64,000 nucleotides of DNA from Aphelenchoides besseyi (taxonomy: Eukaryota; Nematoda; Chromadorea; Rhabditida; Aphelenchoididae). The notes under the pieces were generated by a model, which was given only the letters and a program-made list of their open reading frames with translations, was not told where the DNA came from and searched no databases. Positions 2,960-50,683 of this stretch are shown here, piece after piece; the first letter of the stretch is position 1, and every line of letters starts with the position of its first letter. A program made the translations under genes and the position numbers. Location: positions 15,624,001 to 15,688,000 of the forward strand of contig JAMPIQ010000001.1 in assembly GCA_024699855.1 (NCBI GenBank), written 5' to 3'.

Positions 2960-5780
2960 TCAAAACACTTTTCCTGAAATGCACTTCAAATACGTGAGTT
3001 GCACTTCTTGTTCCAAATCTGCCAAATGACGCACGGTGTCGGCAATTTCAACGGCATGACTGTGCTCGGTTTTTCCTTGAAATCAAAATGAAGCCCATGA
3101 GACCTGACTATTTCTTACCTTCATCAGTTCGCTTACCACCGTAAGTTACTTTGCCTTCGTATTCGAAAACTGGAATCGCAAAGTCATTCTCAACTCGAGG
3201 CACGGTGATTCCCAAATGCTCTTCGATTGCTCCCAATGCCTTAAGACAAACAATCTGTGCATTGCTTTGGCTTTCCTTTTACCTCGACTTCATTGAACCA
3301 TTTCGAACAACCGCCCTTGTTAACGTCCGTAGTGTTGTGGCAATTCGATCCACGACTTTTGCACTGATGATACCAGACCTTTTCGGGTACAGTTGAAACC
3401 AACGAGATCGCCAATCCCATACTAAAGAAAAAGAGTTCTTTTACGTCGTTGAAATGGGTTTACCGTTCCGCACGACCAACACGACCAATTCGATGAACGT
3501 AGTTGGCCTTCTCGTCAACTGCTGGCAAAGTCATGTTGAAGACTGTAATAAAACATTGACAAACGAATGACCACCGGAATTACCGTAAGGAACACCGCGA
3601 ACATCCAATCCACGAGCTGCAACGTCCGTACAAATCAAAAACGCAACTTTGTCTTCCTGAAAACCAGTAGCTTTAACGGCTGACTTGATTGATCGTTTAC
3701 TTTGAATCTTGCCAAGTTATCCGTACGTTCCTGAGGATTTCGATCGCTGTGCAAACATACGGAACTGATGCCTTAAATTCGCAATTCTAGTCAATGGAAA
3801 TCAGTCGTTGAACTGACCGTTTGCTTCCAGAAACTTCTCCACATGATCGCAGTCGAGTTTCGTACGACAGAAAATGATTCCTTTTTCCATTTTATGTTCA
3901 CGAATCGCTTTTAACAAGTAAACGAACTTTAAGACCTTACAGGCTTCGGACAAAGTCTCGTGATTAGAGCTGCCGGGACGAATCTGATCTTTGCTGTGGA
4001 TGCCATCGGTCTACAAACTGAAATAAGAAGAAAGAGAGAGAGTACCTGAATAGCAGAATTGCGTTCCGAACGTAGACGAATCCAACTTTTGTCCGTCGTT
4101 GGATCGATCATACAAACGACGTGATGAACCGTGTCGGGAACCGAATCCTGACCTTTCAAATCGACCCATTGAGGAAACTGCATGAACTCATCCTAGACAT
4201 TAAGAACGTTCACCGAACTGCCAACTATAGAATCTTACGGCCAATTTCTTAACATCAAAGTTGTGCAAAGTCGCCGAACAAACGACCATTTGAAGACGTT
4301 GACCGTCGGCCGAATGTCGTTTCATTTTTTGATGAAGCTCTCGAATTATACGCATCGAATCCCCGGATTGAGAAACCAAACTGTCGGCCTCGTCCAGAAC
4401 GAAGAAGCGAACGTGGTTCAAATCCAAAACCTCTTGATGAACAAGATCACGAACTCTGCCCGGTGTACATGTGATTATGTCCGTTCCTTTTTCGATTGTT
4501 TCCATTTGTTGTTTTGGCGGAACACCTCCGGCAGCCAAAACATTTCTGAGGAATCGATGTCAATCGGATGTCGACAAAAGAAACAAACCGAATTTTTGGA
4601 GAATTCAAACACTTTTTGAACGATTCAATTTGGTTGTACGTTTGCTCTGCAAGTTCTTTGGTTGGCTCCAAAATCAAACATAACGGCGCGTTGGGTTGAC
4701 GTGATTCGTTTGCTTTTTGAGCAGAAGCCGAGTTTTTTGGCGATGTAACGGTGAAGTCCTTATGTGCTTCCGCTACGCCGCGATACCCATTGGGTGGTGG
4801 ATTTTCGAAGGGTTCGGATCCGAAGTTCAATTTCAACGTTGCATTCTAAAACAGTTTGGTTGCTGTTCAATTTGGTTGTTTACCTTAAGTAAGATGGCTG
4901 GATAAAAGGCTTCGTTGGCAATTTTCGAGTCGATTTTGAAGGCAGTCGGATATTCTTTGCCATTTTTCGAGTAGTGAATTGTTCCATCGTCCAAGTTCAG
5001 AAAGCATCCAATCACGTCTTTGAGTGTGTACGATTCGCCGTAGTCTTGAAATTGACCGGCATACGACTTCTTTCCCGTTCCACCGAAACCGTAGCCTTGA
5101 TCGTCGGTGCCTTAACATTCAAAGATGATGGCTATAAGCATAGGCTAGTTACCCAAATTCAAACATGCTCGAGCCGTGGACCAACCCATACGACAAAGAC
5201 CATCGGTTTGAATCGTAGCTTCATAATAGTATTTACCTAAACGTCTTAATACGAAAATGAAATAAAGAAGTTACCTTTTCCACAAACTCCCATTGCTGCT
5301 CGACATCCACTCCACAACTTTGGGTGAGTCGATTGGCACACGAGTCCTGTTTCATCGATTCCCAAATTTCCGTCTTTATCGAAAACGTTCATTCGCCAAC
5401 CATGAGATTCTTAAAAACGATGAGCACGTCAAGACAATCTTTTTGATCATTTACCTTTTGGTTTGTTTGTTTTTCCGAGTTGAGCATCGCGCATCGTCTC
5501 CCAAACGATCTGAATAATCGGAAGGCAAAAAGCTCCAGTTTTACCGCTGCCCGTTTCGGCTGCCTGAATTGGAAGCTTCTTCGAAGTTTACCCATTTCTT
5601 GCTTACCATCAAAACATCTCCACCGCCCAAAATAGCCGGAATTCCGTCTTGCTGAATGTCAGTTGGCAAACTGAAATCGACGAATGAAATGACGCAGTTA
5701 ATCAAAAGTTACCTCCAACCCATTTCGGAGACCGCGTTTGCCAACTCGTCCAAAACTCCCATATCCATAAAAGCGGTCAT
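2960..5780 (-). CDS. DDX1: ATP-dependent RNA helicase DDX1 (DEAD box with SPRY insert)
   Basis: Multi-exon gene whose product aligns end to end with animal DDX1, an RNA helicase in RNA processing, tRNA ligase complexes and RNA transport. Visible in order: N-terminus [17 protein letters not shown], Walker A AETGSGKT, the diagnostic SPRY insert between motifs I and Ia ([24 protein letters not shown]), [21 protein letters not shown] box [10 protein letters not shown], motif III CSAT, the DDX1-specific [18 protein letters not shown], helicase C-terminal [11 protein letters not shown] and the C-terminal [10 protein letters not shown]. Introns are short. The upstream region is shared divergently with BUD31. 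It appears to be the first cistron of a run with two downstream genes. Confidence 0.95.
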
Positions 5781-6174
5781 TTTCAGGTGATAGAAAACAA
5801 CTCTAATATGATACAATACACAACGACAAAAACAACTTTGTTTGTTTCTATTCCACAAACTTAGACGACCACTCGGTTCCCGAAAAGACTCTTTGGTTAT
5901 TTCTTTTTGGTATTTCGTTTCAATTCCAACGCCATCGACGACTTTTGATGCTAAAGCCCAAGGATTGCTCTTATGATCTAGGAGCAATTACGCTCACTTA
6001 GTGGTCTGCATTTTTTATTTAAGCTCTTGAAGATTCAAAGATCTTTTGTTTCTTGCCTAGTGAATTTGTGGACGATTCCTGAGCGTTGAATTCGCTTGTT
6101 GTGGTCAACAATCTTTTTCATAAGGTATATTCGTTCGTTTGATTAACCTCTATTGAGCTTGTTTAGAAGTCTCA
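5781..6174. promoter_or_regulatory. Shared divergent promoter region, DDX1 and BUD31
   Basis: 394 bp between two head-to-head genes. On the + strand a TGTTTAG acceptor-like site lies about 9 nt before the BUD31 ATG, as expected for spliced-leader addition. No TATA box is obvious. Its role as a promoter is inferred only from gene orientation. Confidence 0.4.
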
Positions 6175-6757
6175 ATGTCTTTACAACAGAAACTTCGCCG
6201 TTACCGGAAGAAGCCGCCAGCTGGATGGGACGAATTGGAACCGAAATTGGAAGAATTTGACACCAAGATGCGCGAAGCAGAAGCCGAACCGCACGAAGGG
6301 AAGAGAAAGACCGAAGCGCTGTGGCCAATCTTTCGTGTAAGCTTCTAACTCAGCAGTCGATCCAAAACCTCAAATTTGTTTTGTAGATTCATCATCAACG
6401 TTCTCGCTATGTTTTCGATTTGTTTTGGAAAGAAGAGAAGATAAGTCGGGAGTTGTATCAGTTTTGTTTGGATGCGAAGATTGTCGACTCGCAACTGATG
6501 GCCAAGTGGAAGAAGCCGGGCTACGAGAATCTGTGCTGTTTGCGATGCGTTCAAAGTCGTGATACAAATTTCGGAACCAATTGTAAGTTGACGACACGAA
6601 CATTTGAGACTCAATTGACTTTTTTTAGGTATCTGCAGAGTTCCAAAGAGCAAGTTGGAAGCGGTAGGTCTTGTTGATGTGATCACTTTCGACTTTTGTT
6701 CTTTAGGATCGGGTTATCGAATGTGTCCACTGCGGCTGTCGAGGTTGTTCGGGTTGA
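6175..6757 (+). CDS. BUD31: BUD31/G10 pre-mRNA splicing factor
   Basis: Four exons (6175-6336, 6387-6582, 6629-6663, 6707-6757) encode a complete BUD31 of normal length (about 147 residues). BUD31 is a core component of the activated spliceosome, in the NineTeen-related complex. Conserved features seen: [76 protein letters not shown] and the zinc-binding ending [13 protein letters not shown]. It converges with KLHDC10, whose stop codon is about 180 bp away. Confidence 0.97.
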
Positions 6758-6934: not shown

Positions 6935-8416
6935 TTAGGTGCCGGCTGTCTCCACGAATCGTGCATCCTCGCGTGTATGTTCGTGAGCGGTGAGCAGCGT
7001 TTGGCGAATGACGTTGAAGGGAACGCTCATTACAACTCCCGGCTTTCCAACATAACGCTGGGGCGATCGATTGATTAGAACTCGCGAGCAAATGAAATCT
7101 AAACGTGGCACTCGGACGAAGAACGAGAAAACTTTTTTGGTTCGTGTTATATTGGCCGGATTAGAACTTTTACAACCACCGTATGAAAAGATTTGACCAC
7201 GCTGCAAAGTGAGAATCGACATTGTTTTGAGTCTAAGTTAGTTAGTCATACAGTTGTTACATCGCCGGAATGAAAGAAAACTCCGGATGGCAGCGAGTGG
7301 GCTGATTTGTGCCAACGAAAACTACGAAGATCGAAGTGCCAAACGTCGTCCAGAATCTCATCCTCCGGCTCTTCGTCCTCTTCAATCTCTCTATGCAAAC
7401 CGCCAAAGATCGTGATCGTTTGATCCAATTTCACCAGTGCATGTCCCTTTCTTTGTATTGGATATCCATTTTTAGTGTCGGGATTAGTTGTAAGTTCCGA
7501 GAAACGTCGTGTGGCCAAATCAAAAACTGTCAACTAAACACATGCCATATTTCTTTTGTGTAGTGATGATACCCACCGTTTCAAAAGGACAGTAGACCAC
7601 GGAGTTGCAACCACCACTGCAAATGAGTTCAAAAGATTTTCGATTTCAACGACCTACATTGAATAGATCTTGTTTTCATGCAAAAATGATTCGTGTCGAT
7701 AACGAGGTATCGGTTCGTCTGATGCACTACTCAAAAGTTGACAGGTGGCACTATTTTCGTGTATCACGAACTCGTGAATAGTCATCGAATACAAATGTCC
7801 TTGGGTACCGCCGATCACGTAGACGACCAACTGGTTATCTTTGTTGTAACCAAAAGTCGTGGATTGACCGTAAGTGCGTGGCGCCTCTATACCGTTGATT
7901 TCCAACCTGCGAATTTGAACCGTATCTTCGAATAACAAGGTACATTCGTAAAGTGTGTTTGAAACCGATTCTCCAAATGGGAATCCCTGAAAAAAAGTTA
8001 ACGAAACGAAATTTGTAACTTGCTGTTCCACCATAAACGTAAAATTTGGAGTTTCGTTTTCGTGGTACAAAAGTCACTACAAAAATGACAATCAAAAATC
8101 GGTCAATTGTTCTCTTACATGAAAAAGAAGCCATGGTATCATCAAAACTGCCGATTAGACGTACAGGTGTCCACTCACTGGTCAGCAAATTTAAACGCCA
8201 AATATCTCGAAAGGTCGAAGATCCATCACGAGCGTTCAAAGCCGAATATCCTCCCACTGAGTAGAGATAATCATCGGTTACGAACACACGATGGCCGGAC
8301 CGTTTACCGGGACCCAAACGACTGGATACTAAACTCGTGATGACTAATTGGCAGAAGTTTTTCGACTCACTTCGACGACTCACAACCAACGGATCAGCAA
8401 AATCCGACCACTGCAT
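6935..8416 (-). CDS. KLHDC10: KLHDC10-like kelch-repeat protein
   Basis: Kelch beta-propeller protein; in animals KLHDC10 is a substrate receptor of a Cullin-2 ubiquitin ligase. The spliced product contains successive kelch blades: GKRSGHRVFV...LYSVGGY, FRDIWRLNL, FYVYGGTGFPFGES, YVIGGTQGHLYS, RYRHESFLHENKIY, ALVKLDQTITIFGGL, LDDVWHFDLRSFRWHK and GQIFSYGGC. The block GGT-GFPFGES, with the following IYGQ-like and YRHE motifs, matches KLHDC10 rather than other kelch proteins. One intron (about 8000-8030) has a GC donor (GCAAGT) and a TTTTTTTCAG acceptor; with it the frame is continuous. It lies about 160 bp downstream of the PP6-like gene on the same strand, a possible operon partner. Confidence 0.85.
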
Positions 8417-34134: not shown

Positions 34135-34667
34135 ATGAAGATCGAAATTGTATTTTTGGCTTGGAAAAGATTTATGCTTGAGGTACGTTCGTACTTTGCC
34201 GTCTGTCTACTTTGCCGTCATTTCAGGTCAAAGCCACCGACACCATCCGACAAGTGAAGGAAAAGATTCAAGAAAAAGAAGGCGTTCCGGCAGACCAACA
34301 AATTGCAACTTTGCGTCGTAAGCTCAAAACAACTTTGCTGATTAACTGTCTCATTTTAGGAACGGAACTCAAAGATGATAAAATGCTCCTGGAATACGGT
34401 TTACACAAAGTAAAAAAGAACGTAATTTTGGACTTCTATCTTGAAAAGGATAGGGCTGTACTCGAAGCTCGACAAGTACTTTTGGTTGAGTATTTCCACA
34501 ATAAGGAACTCGATCGTATTCTCAGTGGACCTCCGGAGCTACGCGAAAGGTTGAAACCTCGAATCGCTGATCTCTACGAGAAACTTGGAGTCACGCAAAA
34601 AAAACCAGATTCAGAAGAGTCGACTAGTCATCCCGGCTTGCGTCGACGTCGCGTGGCCAATGATTGA
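34135..34667 (+). CDS. Divergent ubiquitin-like protein with helical C-terminal extension
   Basis: Three exons. The first about 75 residues are a ubiquitin fold: MKIEIVFLAWKRFMLEVKAT then DTIRQVKEKIQEKEGVPADQ, matching ubiquitin's [20 protein letters not shown], and ELKDDKMLLEYGLHK for QLEDGRTLSDYNIQK. There is no C-terminal GG. Instead comes an extension of about 75 residues (ILSGPPELRERLKPRIADLY) ending in an Arg-rich tail (LRRRRVAND). It therefore cannot be conjugated like ubiquitin and is probably an integral UBL domain. Introns of 44 and 42 nt fall inside the fold. The initiating ATG lies about 45 nt after a possible acceptor (GATTTCAG). Function unknown. Confidence 0.75.
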
Positions 34668-45600: not shown

Positions 45601-47257
45601 CGCAATCAGACGGCCGATAAAGAATCCAAATTGCTCGGAAAAAATTCGTTTGAAGATTGAAAGTTCAACGTCGATAAACTGAAACAGCAAAGCTAATTGA
45701 ATTCAAGCTGAGAAAACCATACAATACTAGCAAACATCTCCATTATCTCCACTTCGTCTTTCTGCATGAACTTCATCTGATTTGCACTTTGAGCGTGTTG
45801 AGCAACAAACGAAAAACATCAAAAGATCGAAGAACATAAACAAACAGATTGGAATACAGACGCCTTTCATCGTCCATTGATGAGTCTAAATTGAAAGATG
45901 TGGACGAGTAAATTTAAAGGGACGTACTTTCTGTTAGATGACATTTTCCCAAATGATAGCAAATGACCTTTGATGCTTGAACGATGATTCGAATAATCGA
46001 TCTGCATTCTTTCATGTCCATCGGCGGTCTTTGCTGTGTCGATTGAACAGCAAATGACTCTGAATCACGAAGATTCTCAGTAGTTGATTGAGTTGTAGCG
46101 GTAGATTGAGCTAATTGGTTGGTATGAGCTTCATGTTTCGTTTTTTCAATAGCATTCAGTAATTGCGGTAGATAGTACTTGGCGATGATCTCTGCTTTCT
46201 TAGTCAATGCTCTCAACGCAGACATCAACACATCTCGTGCCTAAACAATTGGTCAGACTTTACTGAAAACATTCAAGCCTACCGGTTCTTTTTTCTCATT
46301 CTCGGTATTAACCAATGGCTCACACAAGTTCATTGTCAATTTGGCGTACATGGTTGATAAGTCGGGAAAAGTTGACTGTCGTGTATGCAACGAATGCAAA
46401 GCTTGTAAACACTAAAAGAGAATTGTTCAGCAATTTTAACTCGTCGACATACTGAAGAAGCATATCATAAGTCAGATTCATTCGCAAGTGGTGAAGCAAA
46501 TCAACGAGTTGTGAGTAGAGGAAATTCCTCAAACTATCTTGACTTGTCAAGGTTTCGCCCAACAAAAAAACGATCGGAAGTAATTCGTGGAATGATCTTG
46601 ACAAAGTGCGGTCGTAGATGTTCACATTGAAGAAAGATTTTGATTGCGATCATAAGCTCTCTGCGTGATGTAGTGACTTGCGGATTCAATAGTTCGAAAA
46701 GATTGTTAATCAAATCGACCATAACGTTCAAATTCTCTTCGTAAATCGGCAGTTGCTAGATATGAAAGATTATAGTAAACAGTGAAGGGAAACTTACGGT
46801 CAGTTGCGGATATTTGCTCATGTAAGCCATGAAGTCCAGAGACCGAATTTGCGAGGCATGGAACTCGTCGATCAACGACAGATCCAAAGTTGCTTCTCGT
46901 TTCGCTACAATCGAAATGTATCTGATCAAAATGGGCATCATTTCGTGCAGTTTTGTGGTCATTTTGTTCGAGTGAATTAAGAGCATCATAAACGACGAAA
47001 GTTCGGCATAGACCCGAACACTCAACGACGATCGCGTTCATTTCTCACTCTTCTTTCGAACAGCTCTGGAAACAAGTCAAAACAATGACAAAAAAAGGAT
47101 ACTCACCAATAGCTTCCAAGAACATTTGTTTGTTTCGATTCTCCTTCGGAATCGATCGAAAGTGATCGTCGATGTGAATCGAACCAACTTCCCGATTCAG
47201 ATTAGTCGAAGTGCTCGAAGCAAAATGTCGCAAGACCAAACGTAATTTGCTGATCAT
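42654..47257 (-). pseudogene. Shortened TRRAP/Tra1-like PIKK pseudokinase gene with lesions
   Basis: TRRAP is the roughly 3,800-residue scaffold of SAGA/TIP60 acetyltransferase complexes. Here 4.6 kb encodes recognisable N-terminal HEAT pieces (QIRSLDFMAYMSKYPQLT; RRELMIAIKIFLQC; YSQLVDLLHHLRMNLTYD; YFHLLRALFPSIDTGSHDHL; FVELCLTVPVRSSSLLPYLL; GLRTLELCVGNLQPDYFYDH). It then jumps to the end of the FAT region and the pseudokinase (SQNGKVYTYILQRR; YPDTSTYWMIRKRLATQWAL) and FATC-like end (CEIDLAQHPWF). Roughly 2,000 residues of the family are missing. An in-frame TAA lies at 43928-43930, a +1 shift near 45603 (FFIGRL / RIHAVSNQFL), and a frame break near 47030. The start (ATATGATC after CTTTAG) lacks about 250 N-terminal residues. 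Paralogue relic rather than the sole TRRAP, unless assembly errors are responsible. Confidence 0.75.
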
Positions 47258-47511
47258 ATCTAAAGGTCAAGATTAATGAAGATAATCAAAAGAACTTATT
47301 TAGCATCTCAATCGACAATCATACGCGATTTCAACGGAAACCAAAATTGCCGTTTGAATCGCGCGTTTTGATCGACACGACTTTTAAACGGAAAGTCGAT
47401 CGTTTTCTTAGGCCGTCTGTTAGGTCAACGGCGATCTTCAGATTCGTCATTGTTCGTGTGCTCGGAATTTTTCTTCGTTAGTCGTTTGATCTCAGTTTTT
47501 ATCCAACGAAA
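47258..47511. promoter_or_regulatory. Divergent promoter region, TRRAP-like and eL20-ubiquitin chimera
   Basis: 254 bp between head-to-head start codons. Immediately upstream of the chimera is TTTTTATCCAACGAAA before the ATG, with pyrimidine-rich tracts as in ribosomal-protein leaders. Promoter role inferred from layout. Confidence 0.4.
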
Positions 47512-48548
47512 ATGCCGATTAAAGCGTCTGGAGAAGTGGTGAGTTTCTCGATACTTTTTCGCAAACTCCAAAAACGATAACACTTCCCGACTTTTCGACC
47601 AAATTTCTTGTTCTCATCTTCGCCATTTCAGTTGAAGAAATTCGTCTTTGCAAAATCGCGTTACTGGTACTTCACTTCGCAACTTCGTCGGCTGAAGAAA
47701 ACACACAGAAATATCATCTCATGCAAAAAGGTTTGTTTTCATTAGTTTTATTATTCTTTTTTCGTTCTTTAGGTCTTCAAGAAGAAAACAGCACAGCTCA
47801 AAAATTTCGGAATTTGGTTCCGATACGATTCACGCACCGGTCATCACAACATGTACCGTGAGTACCGTGATGTCACGATGGTTGGAGCGGTTATTCAAGC
47901 CTACCGTGATATGGGTGCTCGTCATCGTGAACAAGCGGATCGCATCCAAATCATCAAAGTCCAACGTATTGAAGCTGGTAAGTCCATTAAAAGATTGCTG
48001 GTCGTAATTCCATTTCTTTCAGCAGATACGAAACGCGCTGGTGTCAAAAAATTCCATGACGCAAAGATCAAGTTCCCGTTGCCTCATCGTGGGAAAAGTA
48101 TGCAGATCTTCATCAAAACACTCACCGGTAAAACGATCGCCTTCGAGGTCGAGGCCTCGGACACGATTGAAAACTTGAAGGCTAAGCTTCAAAAGAAGGA
48201 GGGAATTCCACCGGAACAACAACGATTAGTATTCGCTGGTAAGTAAAACGCCAAATTTTATAATCGATGTTTTCAGAATGTCAACTCGAAGACGGACACA
48301 TCCTTGGCGACTACAACATCCAAAAGAAATCGACTATCCATTTGATGAGTCGTCTACGTGGTGGAGTGATTGAAGATCTCGATGAAGATCATCGAGCGGT
48401 CGAGAATGTTACGTCAAGCAAATCCACGGACGCCTTAAACGCCACGATGAAGTTGCTTGGCAACAGTATTCTACAATTTTGCATTATTTTCTTCGCCAAT
48501 CTTCTGGCAAGGTACGTTGAGAATCGTTATTTTGACAAACCAAAGTAA
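47512..48548 (+). CDS. Chimera: ribosomal protein eL20-like, ubiquitin fold, membrane-anchor tail
   Basis: Five exons (47512-47538, 47632-47730, 47773-47977, 48023-48238, 48277-48548) total 819 nt, 272 residues, all phases consistent. Residues 1-133 are an eL20/RPL18A paralogue: MPIKASGEV, then directly [52 protein letters not shown] and [13 protein letters not shown]. About 32 residues after KASG are missing, as is the usual C-terminal tail. Linker GKS leads, within one exon, to a full 76-residue ubiquitin (137-212): [48 protein letters not shown]. Lys48 is Cys. A 60-residue tail ([15 protein letters not shown]...) ends with hydrophobic [17 protein letters not shown]. Normal ubiquitin-ribosomal fusions have ubiquitin first and use eL40 or eS31. 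Not a functional eL20; role unknown. Confidence 0.85.
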
Positions 48549-48620
48549 TTCGTTGTTGTCAGATGTCTTAATAGAGTTTTTGTTGAGTTTATTGTTTTTG
48601 TTGTTGCTAAGTTCTCAATA

Positions 48621-50683
48621 AAAGTTTGTCCATCTTCTTGAACTCTTCGAGTTTCTTAATAAATCAATTCACTTGTTTGACTAACGTATTGAATAGTCAG
48701 GTACTACATTCATAAACCATATAGAGATTTGGTCACCGATAGACAAAATGTTGATCTGCGGATAAGGTTGGTGATAACATTGTAGAGAACCAAATTCCAA
48801 GGCCCGTAATAACTGTAAGTCTCTTGATCGTGATTAAAAGCGTAATGCTCGGCAATAAAGTGACCACTAGACGGATGAGCACCCATTGCCATCAACGTTC
48901 CACCAATCAAATAGACAAGACTACGTGGTCCGCAGATATACAAAATGAGAAGATCGTAAATAAGCTGCAAACAGTCAACGGTAAGCGAGAATACGTGGTG
49001 AACGTGCCTGAACTATCGCGTTGATAACCTCCAAGTCGCACGGCAATTTTCTGTAAACCACAAGCGGACGAAAAGCGTAGAAAAGTGGTTGTAGAAGAAT
49101 CCAAAGTAGTTTGCGAATCGGAGTGGTGAAGAACTTTGCTTCAAATTCTGTAGGAAGATCGGTGTCCAGCCCATCTTCTGCTGTAAATCTACGGTTTATG
49201 GTATCAGGAAGATGTCAGTTACATAGATAGCGATGATGTTCAACGTGATACTTTTTGAATGAAACGGAAATCGGAACTCCGATTGGCAAATTGGCAAACA
49301 TTCCAAAAAGTCGATTCGAGATTGGACGTTTATTCCCGTATGCTGTGTTGTGTGAAATGTCATGAATCGCTAATGCCAATCCATGATTCACGAGACCGCC
49401 AAAGAAATAGGCCTGAAGAAGAATAAGTGACCAATCGGAATCTGCAATTGATTGTTTGTTAGATGGATAGCAGGGTACACACCTTTTAGAAGATAAGCAG
49501 CAATAGTTTGCATTAGAACACAGGACCCGACAACGTATTTGAGAGATGGGTCGACGCCAAAAAGTTTCTTTATTTTCGGATATTTTCGCAAAATCGAACG
49601 TCGACGATCCGAATGCGGTTGCTCACCGTAGACCCAAAGGAATTCGGTTGATGAAACTTCCTGACCCATTAGTGTCCGGACAATGTTCTGTTTAAGAATC
49701 GAGTCGTTTATTGGTTTCTGACAACCTAAAAAGACTTAGCAACACAGCTTTTTCCTATAAGCAAATGACCGTTGGCTAGCAACTTGAATTTCAGAGTGAC
49801 TGGGATATCCATTGGTTTGTCGACTATTTTCAGTCGCGTGTTCATCGTAGGGACTTCAAACTTAAGAAGCAAAACCATTCATTAGCATAAAGTTTATTAA
49901 TGAAACAAGAAATCACTCGGCTTTTTCAGTGGCAGCTTTTTTCTTCAATGCACGTTTACGAGTGGCAATCGAGTTCTGATTCACGAACTTCTCGATGACC
50001 CACGATGGCAAGACGCCGAAGTAGAGAGTCGATTGCAGCTCGTGAGGCCAACAGCCGGTCGTCTCGTCGACGAGTCCAATGGAATTGACTGCCGACTTGG
50101 CGTACACGCTTGGCGTTGGAATTGTCAACGAGGTTTTGCGGATCTTCGACATTTTGGTGGCCACCATCATCGGACAGACGGTTTGAATCACGATGTTCGT
50201 TTGTGCGTACTCTTTGCGCAGAATCGACGACAACCAATTGACATACTTCTGCAGCGACCTGTTCAACAACCATCACTCGCTCAACTGACCTTTGTGGCCG
50301 AGTAGATGGCCCAGTAGTACATCGGATGGTAGGCAGCAGAGGACGAGAGATTGACGACAACTCCCGCGTTCCGCTGGGCCATTTGACTGAGAACTGTCGC
50401 GGACAACAAAGTCACCGGCAGAGTGTTCATTACGGTGATGTCGCTGACGCGTTTGAGTCCACCTTCCAGCAAATCCAAACGCTCCGGGTACTCGTAGCTC
50501 ATTCCGACGTTGTTCACTGAACAAACGATTGATTGCAAAAACAAGGCCAACTCACCGAGCACTCCGACTTCCATCGACTTCAGAACGCTCAGAAGTTTCT
50601 GTTCGTACTCGTCGAAATCGGCCTTGGAGAAGTCGAAGGCGATGGTTTTGATTTCGACCTGCGATTTCTGTCGAATCTCTTCG
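48621..50683. repeat. Segmental duplication, copy 2 (2.06 kb)
   Basis: Copy of 30807-32868 in the same orientation, 17.8 kb away. Its left edge contains the last 21 bp of the GH114 coding sequence as a non-functional stub, just after the AATAAA of the chimera gene. Its right edge is not a discontinuity in this copy: the reductase continues intact to 50987. Confidence 0.95.
48710..49669 (-). CDS. Sphingolipid delta-4 desaturase-like, C-terminally truncated, copy 2
   Basis: Same gene model and exon structure as 30896-31855, with a few substitutions (for example [10 protein letters not shown] for [10 protein letters not shown]). Histidine boxes HDISH and HVEHH are kept; the third box is replaced by the same [13 protein letters not shown] ending. 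The shared truncation shows it predates the duplication. The frame is open in both copies, but loss of the third box predicts no desaturase activity. It starts about 240 bp downstream of the reductase stop on the same strand. Confidence 0.8.

Follow-up and report, generated by a model that had tools for sequence, protein, structure and literature searches.

The 64,000-nucleotide stretch of Aphelenchoides besseyi DNA analysed here (the window; C1:15624001-15688000) encodes, at positions 47512-48548, an in-frame fusion of a shortened ribosomal protein eL20, an internal, diverged ubiquitin, and a hydrophobic tail. A first-pass annotation had treated this fusion as a single gene, but it is a member of a recombining family. 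With about even confidence, we interpret the copies as a lineage-specific chimeric family that would use rpl-20 signals and whose product would be cut after RLRGG by deubiquitinases.

Splicing and translation of the window DNA give a model of five exons with GT-AG introns and 272 codons followed by TAA (Table 1), in which eL20 occupies residues 1-133, a GKS linker residues 134-136, ubiquitin residues 137-212, and the tail residues 213-272. Both Pfam domains, Ribosomal_L18A (PF01775, 1.5e-15, profile positions 15-59 of 59) and ubiquitin (8.7e-17), lie in a single open frame (47773-48246) that spans the eL20-ubiquitin join and also reads through intron 3. With an open five-exon model and both domains in one frame, the fusion proposed in the first-pass annotation is real, and two of its details, a join falling inside one exon (exon 4) and a ubiquitin that keeps its RGG and is followed by VIED (exon 5), can be read directly in the DNA. 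Chance similarity was rejected on the basis of the Pfam matches to both domains. The domain order is eL20-ubiquitin-tail, and the product thus does not have the N-terminal ubiquitin of eS31/eL40-type precursors. In the leader, the window has CTCAG at 47491-47495 at the place where canonical rpl-20 has TTTCAG, and we presume that this motif could serve as a trans-splice acceptor. At the other end of the gene, DNA 48542-48628 is found again in the loci L021, L043, and L047.

Table 1. Features of the eL20-ubiquitin-tail gene, in window positions
Feature	Positions	Strand	Details
5' flank and leader, rpl-20-derived	47373..47511	+	head-DNA matches and leader letters
Exon 1, MPIKASGEV	47512..47538	+	27/27 bases identical to canonical rpl-20 exon 1
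Exon 2, eL20	47632..47730	+	without the 27 codons present after LKQF in canonical exon 2
Exon 3, C-terminal half of eL20	47773..47977	+	
Exon 4	48023..48238	+	end of eL20 (to PLPHR), GKS linker, ubiquitin 1-46 and base 1 of codon 47
Exon 5, ubiquitin 47-76	48277..48365	+	to RLRGG
Exon 5, 60-residue tail	48366..48548	+	19-residue hydrophobic stretch, then TAA
AATAAA, likely polyadenylation signal	48617..48622	+	

Alignment and DNA both show that, relative to the canonical protein of 180 residues (L020), the eL20 part retains residues 1-13, skips residues 14-40 (n = 27), then runs on to PLPHR, and is without the last 20 residues. The truncation described in the first-pass annotation is therefore correct with respect to the protein's own tail, but the supposed loss of about 32 N-terminal residues is an internal loss of 27, so that neither the N-terminal half nor the C-terminal end of eL20 is complete. 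Solved eL20 chains, among the matches listed, align to the GenBank model P0010 from residue 13-15 onward. An ordinary rpl-20 gene exists elsewhere in the genome, at C1:15.856 Mb. The GenBank model P0096 at this locus joins rpl-20 to cytochrome c, probably because annotation merged two neighbours, as rpl-20 here continues to its own end THFA.

A profile search of the genome (47386574 bases, of which C1, C2, and C3, with 18141642, 17779264, and 9972226 bases, make up 45.9 of 47.4 Mb) identified six places matching PF01775. Five of these run into ubiquitin (the window copy, L015, L016, L017, and L018), and the sixth is the canonical gene. Open five-exon models are found in the window copy, L015, and L017, with products of 272, 284, and 281 residues, respectively; L015 has GT-AG introns like the window copy, and the first donor of L017 is CT rather than GT. 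L016 (5295-5560, C3:7.192 Mb) is the only one of the five located off C1 and comprises exons 3-5 only, with a GERV-like repeat linker (a GERV/DERV run) and a join that retains more canonical eL20 letters. In L018, the front of eL20 is lost, the ubiquitin is broken, and the fused sequence is an in-frame continuation of a helicase-like open frame (approximately 4370-6400, minus strand, C1:15.226 Mb). An upstream piece of this frame matches DEAD below the cut-off (3.9e-4), and the piece fused to eL20 has no DEAD match; we take it to be helicase-like solely from its SAT motif. Degenerate copies in which exon 2 is joined directly to ubiquitin are present in L019 and L021, and L022, L025, L047, L048, and L049 contain pieces, either ubiquitin-tail or tail, that lack eL20 exons 3-4. 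The L047 piece (7404-7943, C1:15.711 Mb) consists of rpl-20 flank directly abutting a tail of the L015 type, the eL20 and ubiquitin parts having been lost. In L022 (5880-5960, C1:15.359 Mb), a LYNMQNFAPNHV-like reading precedes the ubiquitin-tail exon; by eye it resembles the eL20 segment missing from the window copy and may represent an older head.

The 343 bp head (47290-47632) matches the genome at 15 places, its own included; every one lies within C1:14.936-15.856 Mb, and one of them is canonical rpl-20 (71%). Other sequences of the window also recur. Positions 46000-47124, whose minus strand holds a Tra1-like piece (PF20175, 1.9e-5, below the cut-off), are 97-99% identical at four other places on C1. 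Positions 34182-34667 (plus strand) hold an open frame of 161 amino acids with a diverged ubiquitin-like part (PF00240, 1.7e-8); 12 places like it lie on C1:14.87-15.72 Mb, and 9 of the 11 that were read end in RRRRVAND. Furthermore, L034 (2190-2504) and L036 (3473-3787 and 7888-8202), all at C1:16.37-16.41 Mb, encode single ubiquitins with long charged tails that look coiled-coil-like by eye and, judged from sequence, are a second kind of ubiquitin extension gene.

The divergence among the three open copies changes across the join. In pairwise comparisons of the window copy, L015, and L017, eL20 has a dS of 0.14-0.18 and ubiquitin one of 0.70-1.36; the tail values are 3.23 (window-L015), 1.75, and beyond estimate. 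At the DNA level, the window copy matches L015 and L017 at 69/69 bases at the end of eL20 and at 80-81% in the ubiquitin part of exon 4, and its tail is 47% identical to that of L015 and 46% to that of L017; upstream, the identity between window and L015 is 96.6%. These values indicate that similar eL20 heads stand on old, diverged ubiquitin-tail parts, and the most likely cause of this age difference across the join is that recombination or gene conversion moved the heads or made them uniform. Separate grafts of an ordinary rpl-20 head onto each ubiquitin gene are less likely, since the 27-codon loss is common to the window copy, L015, and L017 (L016 and L018 have no exon 2) and HRG stands at all five joins in place of the HRV of rpl-20.

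Estimates of dN/dS along the three parts, based on Nei-Gojobori counts over small regions, are below 1 in several comparisons, although not in all. For ubiquitin, values of 0.16 (0-0.29; window-L015), 0.24 (0.11-0.42; window-L017), and 0.24 (0.09-0.45; L015-L017) were obtained. Those for the tail are 0.27 (0.10-0.63; window-L022a), 0.22 (0-0.72; window-L015, at a dS of 3.23), and 0.58 (0-1.23; L015-L017), other tail pairs having no finite dS, and the tails of L015 and the derelict L047 give 0.18 (8.5/42 synonymous, 6.5/158 replacement). L016 yields 0.80 against L015 and 0.81 against L017. Private changes in eL20 were assigned by majority rule, under which the fused copies outvote canonical rpl-20 and leave it with 10 replacements; their dN/dS is 0.29 (p = 0.006) in the window copy and 0.19 (p = 0.003) in L015, whereas L017 (0.43, p = 0.12) and L016 (0.48, p = 0.21) are indistinguishable from neutral. 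Constraint is thus indicated for the window copy and L015, whereas L017 and L016 give no such indication. On the eL20 head, an appearance of constraint could also result from gene conversion with rpl-20, and for ubiquitin and tail the constraint may be older than the fusion. When neutral change to 30-50% was simulated, the runs out of 1000 that kept an open tail frame numbered 231 to 103 (window copy), 152 to 79 (L015), 141 to 80 (L017), and 80 to 24 (L016), a result that is suggestive rather than decisive against neutrality.

These results bear on the possibility that the fusions are non-functional by-products of a segmentally duplicating region that makes rpl-20/ubiquitin chimeras, most of which decay. 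This remains a minority reading but a credible one, as the many shortened or broken copies (L018, L019, L021, L022, L025, L047, L048, and L049), the upstream segments shared nearly identically with four other places, the non-GT donor of L017, and an eL20 indistinguishable from neutral in L017 and L016 would all be expected of such a process. It accounts less well for three copies that are open despite strongly diverged tails, a state on which the neutral simulation is suggestive, and for dN/dS well under 1 in several parts. Two of the copies, window and L015, are probably functional.

The ubiquitin part, described in the first-pass annotation as a complete 76-residue ubiquitin, is not ordinary. 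It differs from the Ub-eS31 of its own genome at 17 of 76 residues and is therefore not nearly identical to it; among the replacements are K48C, G47E, I44V, V70M, and L71S, and K6, K11, K27, K29, K33, K63, R72, R74, G75, and G76 are kept. Across the window copy, L015, L017, and L016, between 17 and 23 of 76 residues differ from Ub-eS31, and 32 of the 76 positions are unchanged in all four. D32, V70, and L71 are changed in every copy and K48 in three of the four, and R72, G75, and G76 are kept throughout. The RLRGG end is intact in the window copy and L015 and reads RLQGG in L017 and RICGG in L016. At 14 positions that we take to be buried in ubiquitin, all 11 replacements in the four copies remain hydrophobic, compared with a one-step expectation of 0.55 each on average and approximately 0.001 for all 11. 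The intron in codon 47 is common to the window ubiquitin and the Ub-eS31 gene (L027), and among the six ordinary ubiquitin sequences in the comparison, Ub-eS31 has the highest identity to every one of the four copies (78.1% for the window, whose identity to the fused L017 is 78.5%). A DNA tree of 10 sequences, with one of seven inner branches well supported, left the origin of the ubiquitin unplaced.

The tails comprise 60 (window), 73 (L015), 71 (L017), and 92 (L016) residues, and the best 19-residue Kyte-Doolittle means are 1.86, 0.87, 1.79, and 1.36, respectively. Of 2000 shuffles, 33 were equally hydrophobic for the window, 1064 for L015, 288 for L017, and 142 for L016. Based on these values, a membrane anchor is plausible in the window copy and L017 and doubtful in L015. 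A search of the protein collection with window residues 207-272 returned no tail relative among four candidates (E up to 10), and with P0010 residues 205-284 the only relative among 14 candidates was P0010 itself. A structure predicted for P0010 from seven sequences is of low confidence over its whole length (mean pLDDT 42.5, at least 70 at 7 of 284 residues) and supports nothing; the blocks with the highest values, 55-67, fall within residues 51-110, which belong to the C-terminal half of eL20.

The divergence of the ubiquitin and the character of the tail also allow a product that is not a deubiquitinase substrate and stays whole, with the tail in the membrane and eL20 and ubiquitin in the cytosol. 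The 17 to 23 replaced residues, the recurrent changes at D32, V70, L71, and K48, the altered RLQGG and RICGG ends, and the 12 residues that follow the hydrophobic stretch in the window copy are in line with such an uncut, membrane-anchored protein. We nevertheless regard it as unlikely, given that R72, G75, and G76 persist in all four copies, RLRGG is whole in two, and the tail of L015 is weakly hydrophobic. In the window product, LRGG is followed by a non-proline residue (RLRGG-VIED), and a cut should therefore be possible, if the diverged domain still binds deubiquitinases. A cut precursor is the preferred reading because both of the best-preserved copies have the motif unaltered.

According to the cut-precursor reading, an rpl-20 copy that included leader and introns would have lost 27 internal and the last 20 codons, the anatomy being visible in the DNA and the order of events deduced, and would have been joined in frame to a gene for ubiquitin plus a hydrophobic tail. 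To judge from the divergence, the eL20 head then may have spread to, or been homogenised among, several ubiquitin-tail genes that had diverged before, most of them in one C1 region. Expression would probably proceed from rpl-20 signals: exon 1 is 100% and intron 1 is 92% identical to rpl-20, and the flank is 76% identical, which makes rpl-20-like expression likely. The eL20 fragment-ubiquitin-tail protein would then be made and, as the kept motif suggests, probably cut after RLRGG by deubiquitinases. Such a cut would yield two products: a short peptide of tail-anchored-like type, and an eL20 fragment that carries a C-terminal ubiquitin-like domain with a free GG and is unlikely to stand in for eL20 in the 60S subunit. 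As a long shot, the product might be a K48-less, membrane-tethered ubiquitin on a ribosomal-protein vehicle, in which dosage is set by the leader and promoter of rpl-20, the eL20 fragment is a competitor of eL20 or of its assembly factors, and the ubiquitin either marks membranes or leaves with a conjugable eL20 head; head-swapping on a constrained ubiquitin-tail module would then constitute a new ubiquitin system, possibly selfish or dosage-sensing.

Gene models from GenBank contain the join as well, although they are not proof of transcription. P0013, which lies on a 16068654-base A. besseyi contig in another assembly, has the same residues 1-182 as the window product, then enters intron 4 and stops within ubiquitin at 184 residues, its end FAGK corresponding to GGT AAG TAA in the window. 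If intron 4 were indeed retained, the product would end in ubiquitin at 184 residues and have neither a full ubiquitin nor a tail. This is quite improbable, as intron 4 is GT-AG in the window copy, L015, and L017, lies in codon 47 as in the Ub-eS31 gene, and precedes an exon that is constrained in some comparisons, and P0010 is annotated at full length. P0010 equals the whole L015 product letter for letter; its contig (18143627 bases) cannot be one of this genome either, but it is 1985 bases longer than C1 and may therefore come from a version of the present assembly rather than an independent one. P0090 matches L017, with front and end modelled otherwise. Among the 120 of 701 matches listed, PF01775 and PF00240 occur together in these three models, all from A. 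besseyi, and in no other organism. The eL20-ubiquitin join is thus present in at least one other assembly, and an assembly join of two loci, which the first-pass annotation had kept in view, is practically excluded by five such places in this genome and by the contig of P0013, whose size cannot belong here given those of C1-C3.

The first-pass annotation had held that ribosomal fusions are solely ubiquitin-first and involve eL40 or eS31, which is too strict. According to the accessible text of an architecture survey, eS31 and eL40 are nearly exclusive ubiquitin partners, but eS8, eS19, uL1, eL41, and P1 are reported as rare others and ubiquitin is occasionally C-terminal or internal (PMC8122580), so the kind of fusion described here is already known. 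eL20 has no occurrence in the main text of that article, and no eL20-ubiquitin fusion was described in the literature searched at the level of titles and the beginnings of abstracts; within this literature, the eL20 partner, the tail, and the shared head appear to be new. The sole link to membranes in the accessible part of the survey is an algal ubiquitin fused to a protein that resembles integral membrane proteins of bacteria (PMC8122580). The fars-3-derived toxins, reported as selfish nematode paralogues of an essential translation gene (PMC12680543), likewise go back to an essential, translation-related gene that duplicated more than once and diverged, which is a resemblance only. Like the cyst-nematode UBCEP proteins, as described for GrUBCEP12 in the part of the article available, the window product is a nematode ubiquitin with a C-terminal extension, and GrUBCEP12 is processed to ubiquitin and extension when expressed in plant cells (PMC4312480). 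Unlike GrUBCEP12, which carries a secretion signal (PMC4312480), the window product starts as eL20, shows no N-terminal secretion signal in its sequence, and has a hydrophobic tail as its extension.

Ubiquitin precursors are normally cut fast after GG, and why ubiquitin remains fused almost only to eS31 and eL40 was termed enigmatic in the same 2021 review (PMC8122580). A reversed-order fusion to another ribosomal protein, present in several copies in a still-recombining region, lets one ask what the survival of such a fusion needs, candidates being expression level, co-translational folding, or cleavage itself, and it points to a genome region where new ubiquitin architectures keep arising. 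With Ub-eS31 (RPS27A) and Ub-eL40 (UBA52), the window gene shares a single ubiquitin in frame with a ribosomal protein and an LRGG at the end of ubiquitin; it differs from them in having the ribosomal part first, an internal and diverged ubiquitin, a truncated eL20 as the partner, and a hydrophobic tail. In its unusual partner and non-N-terminal ubiquitin, it resembles instead the rare eS8, eS19, uL1, eL41, and P1 fusions reported in the survey (PMC8122580).
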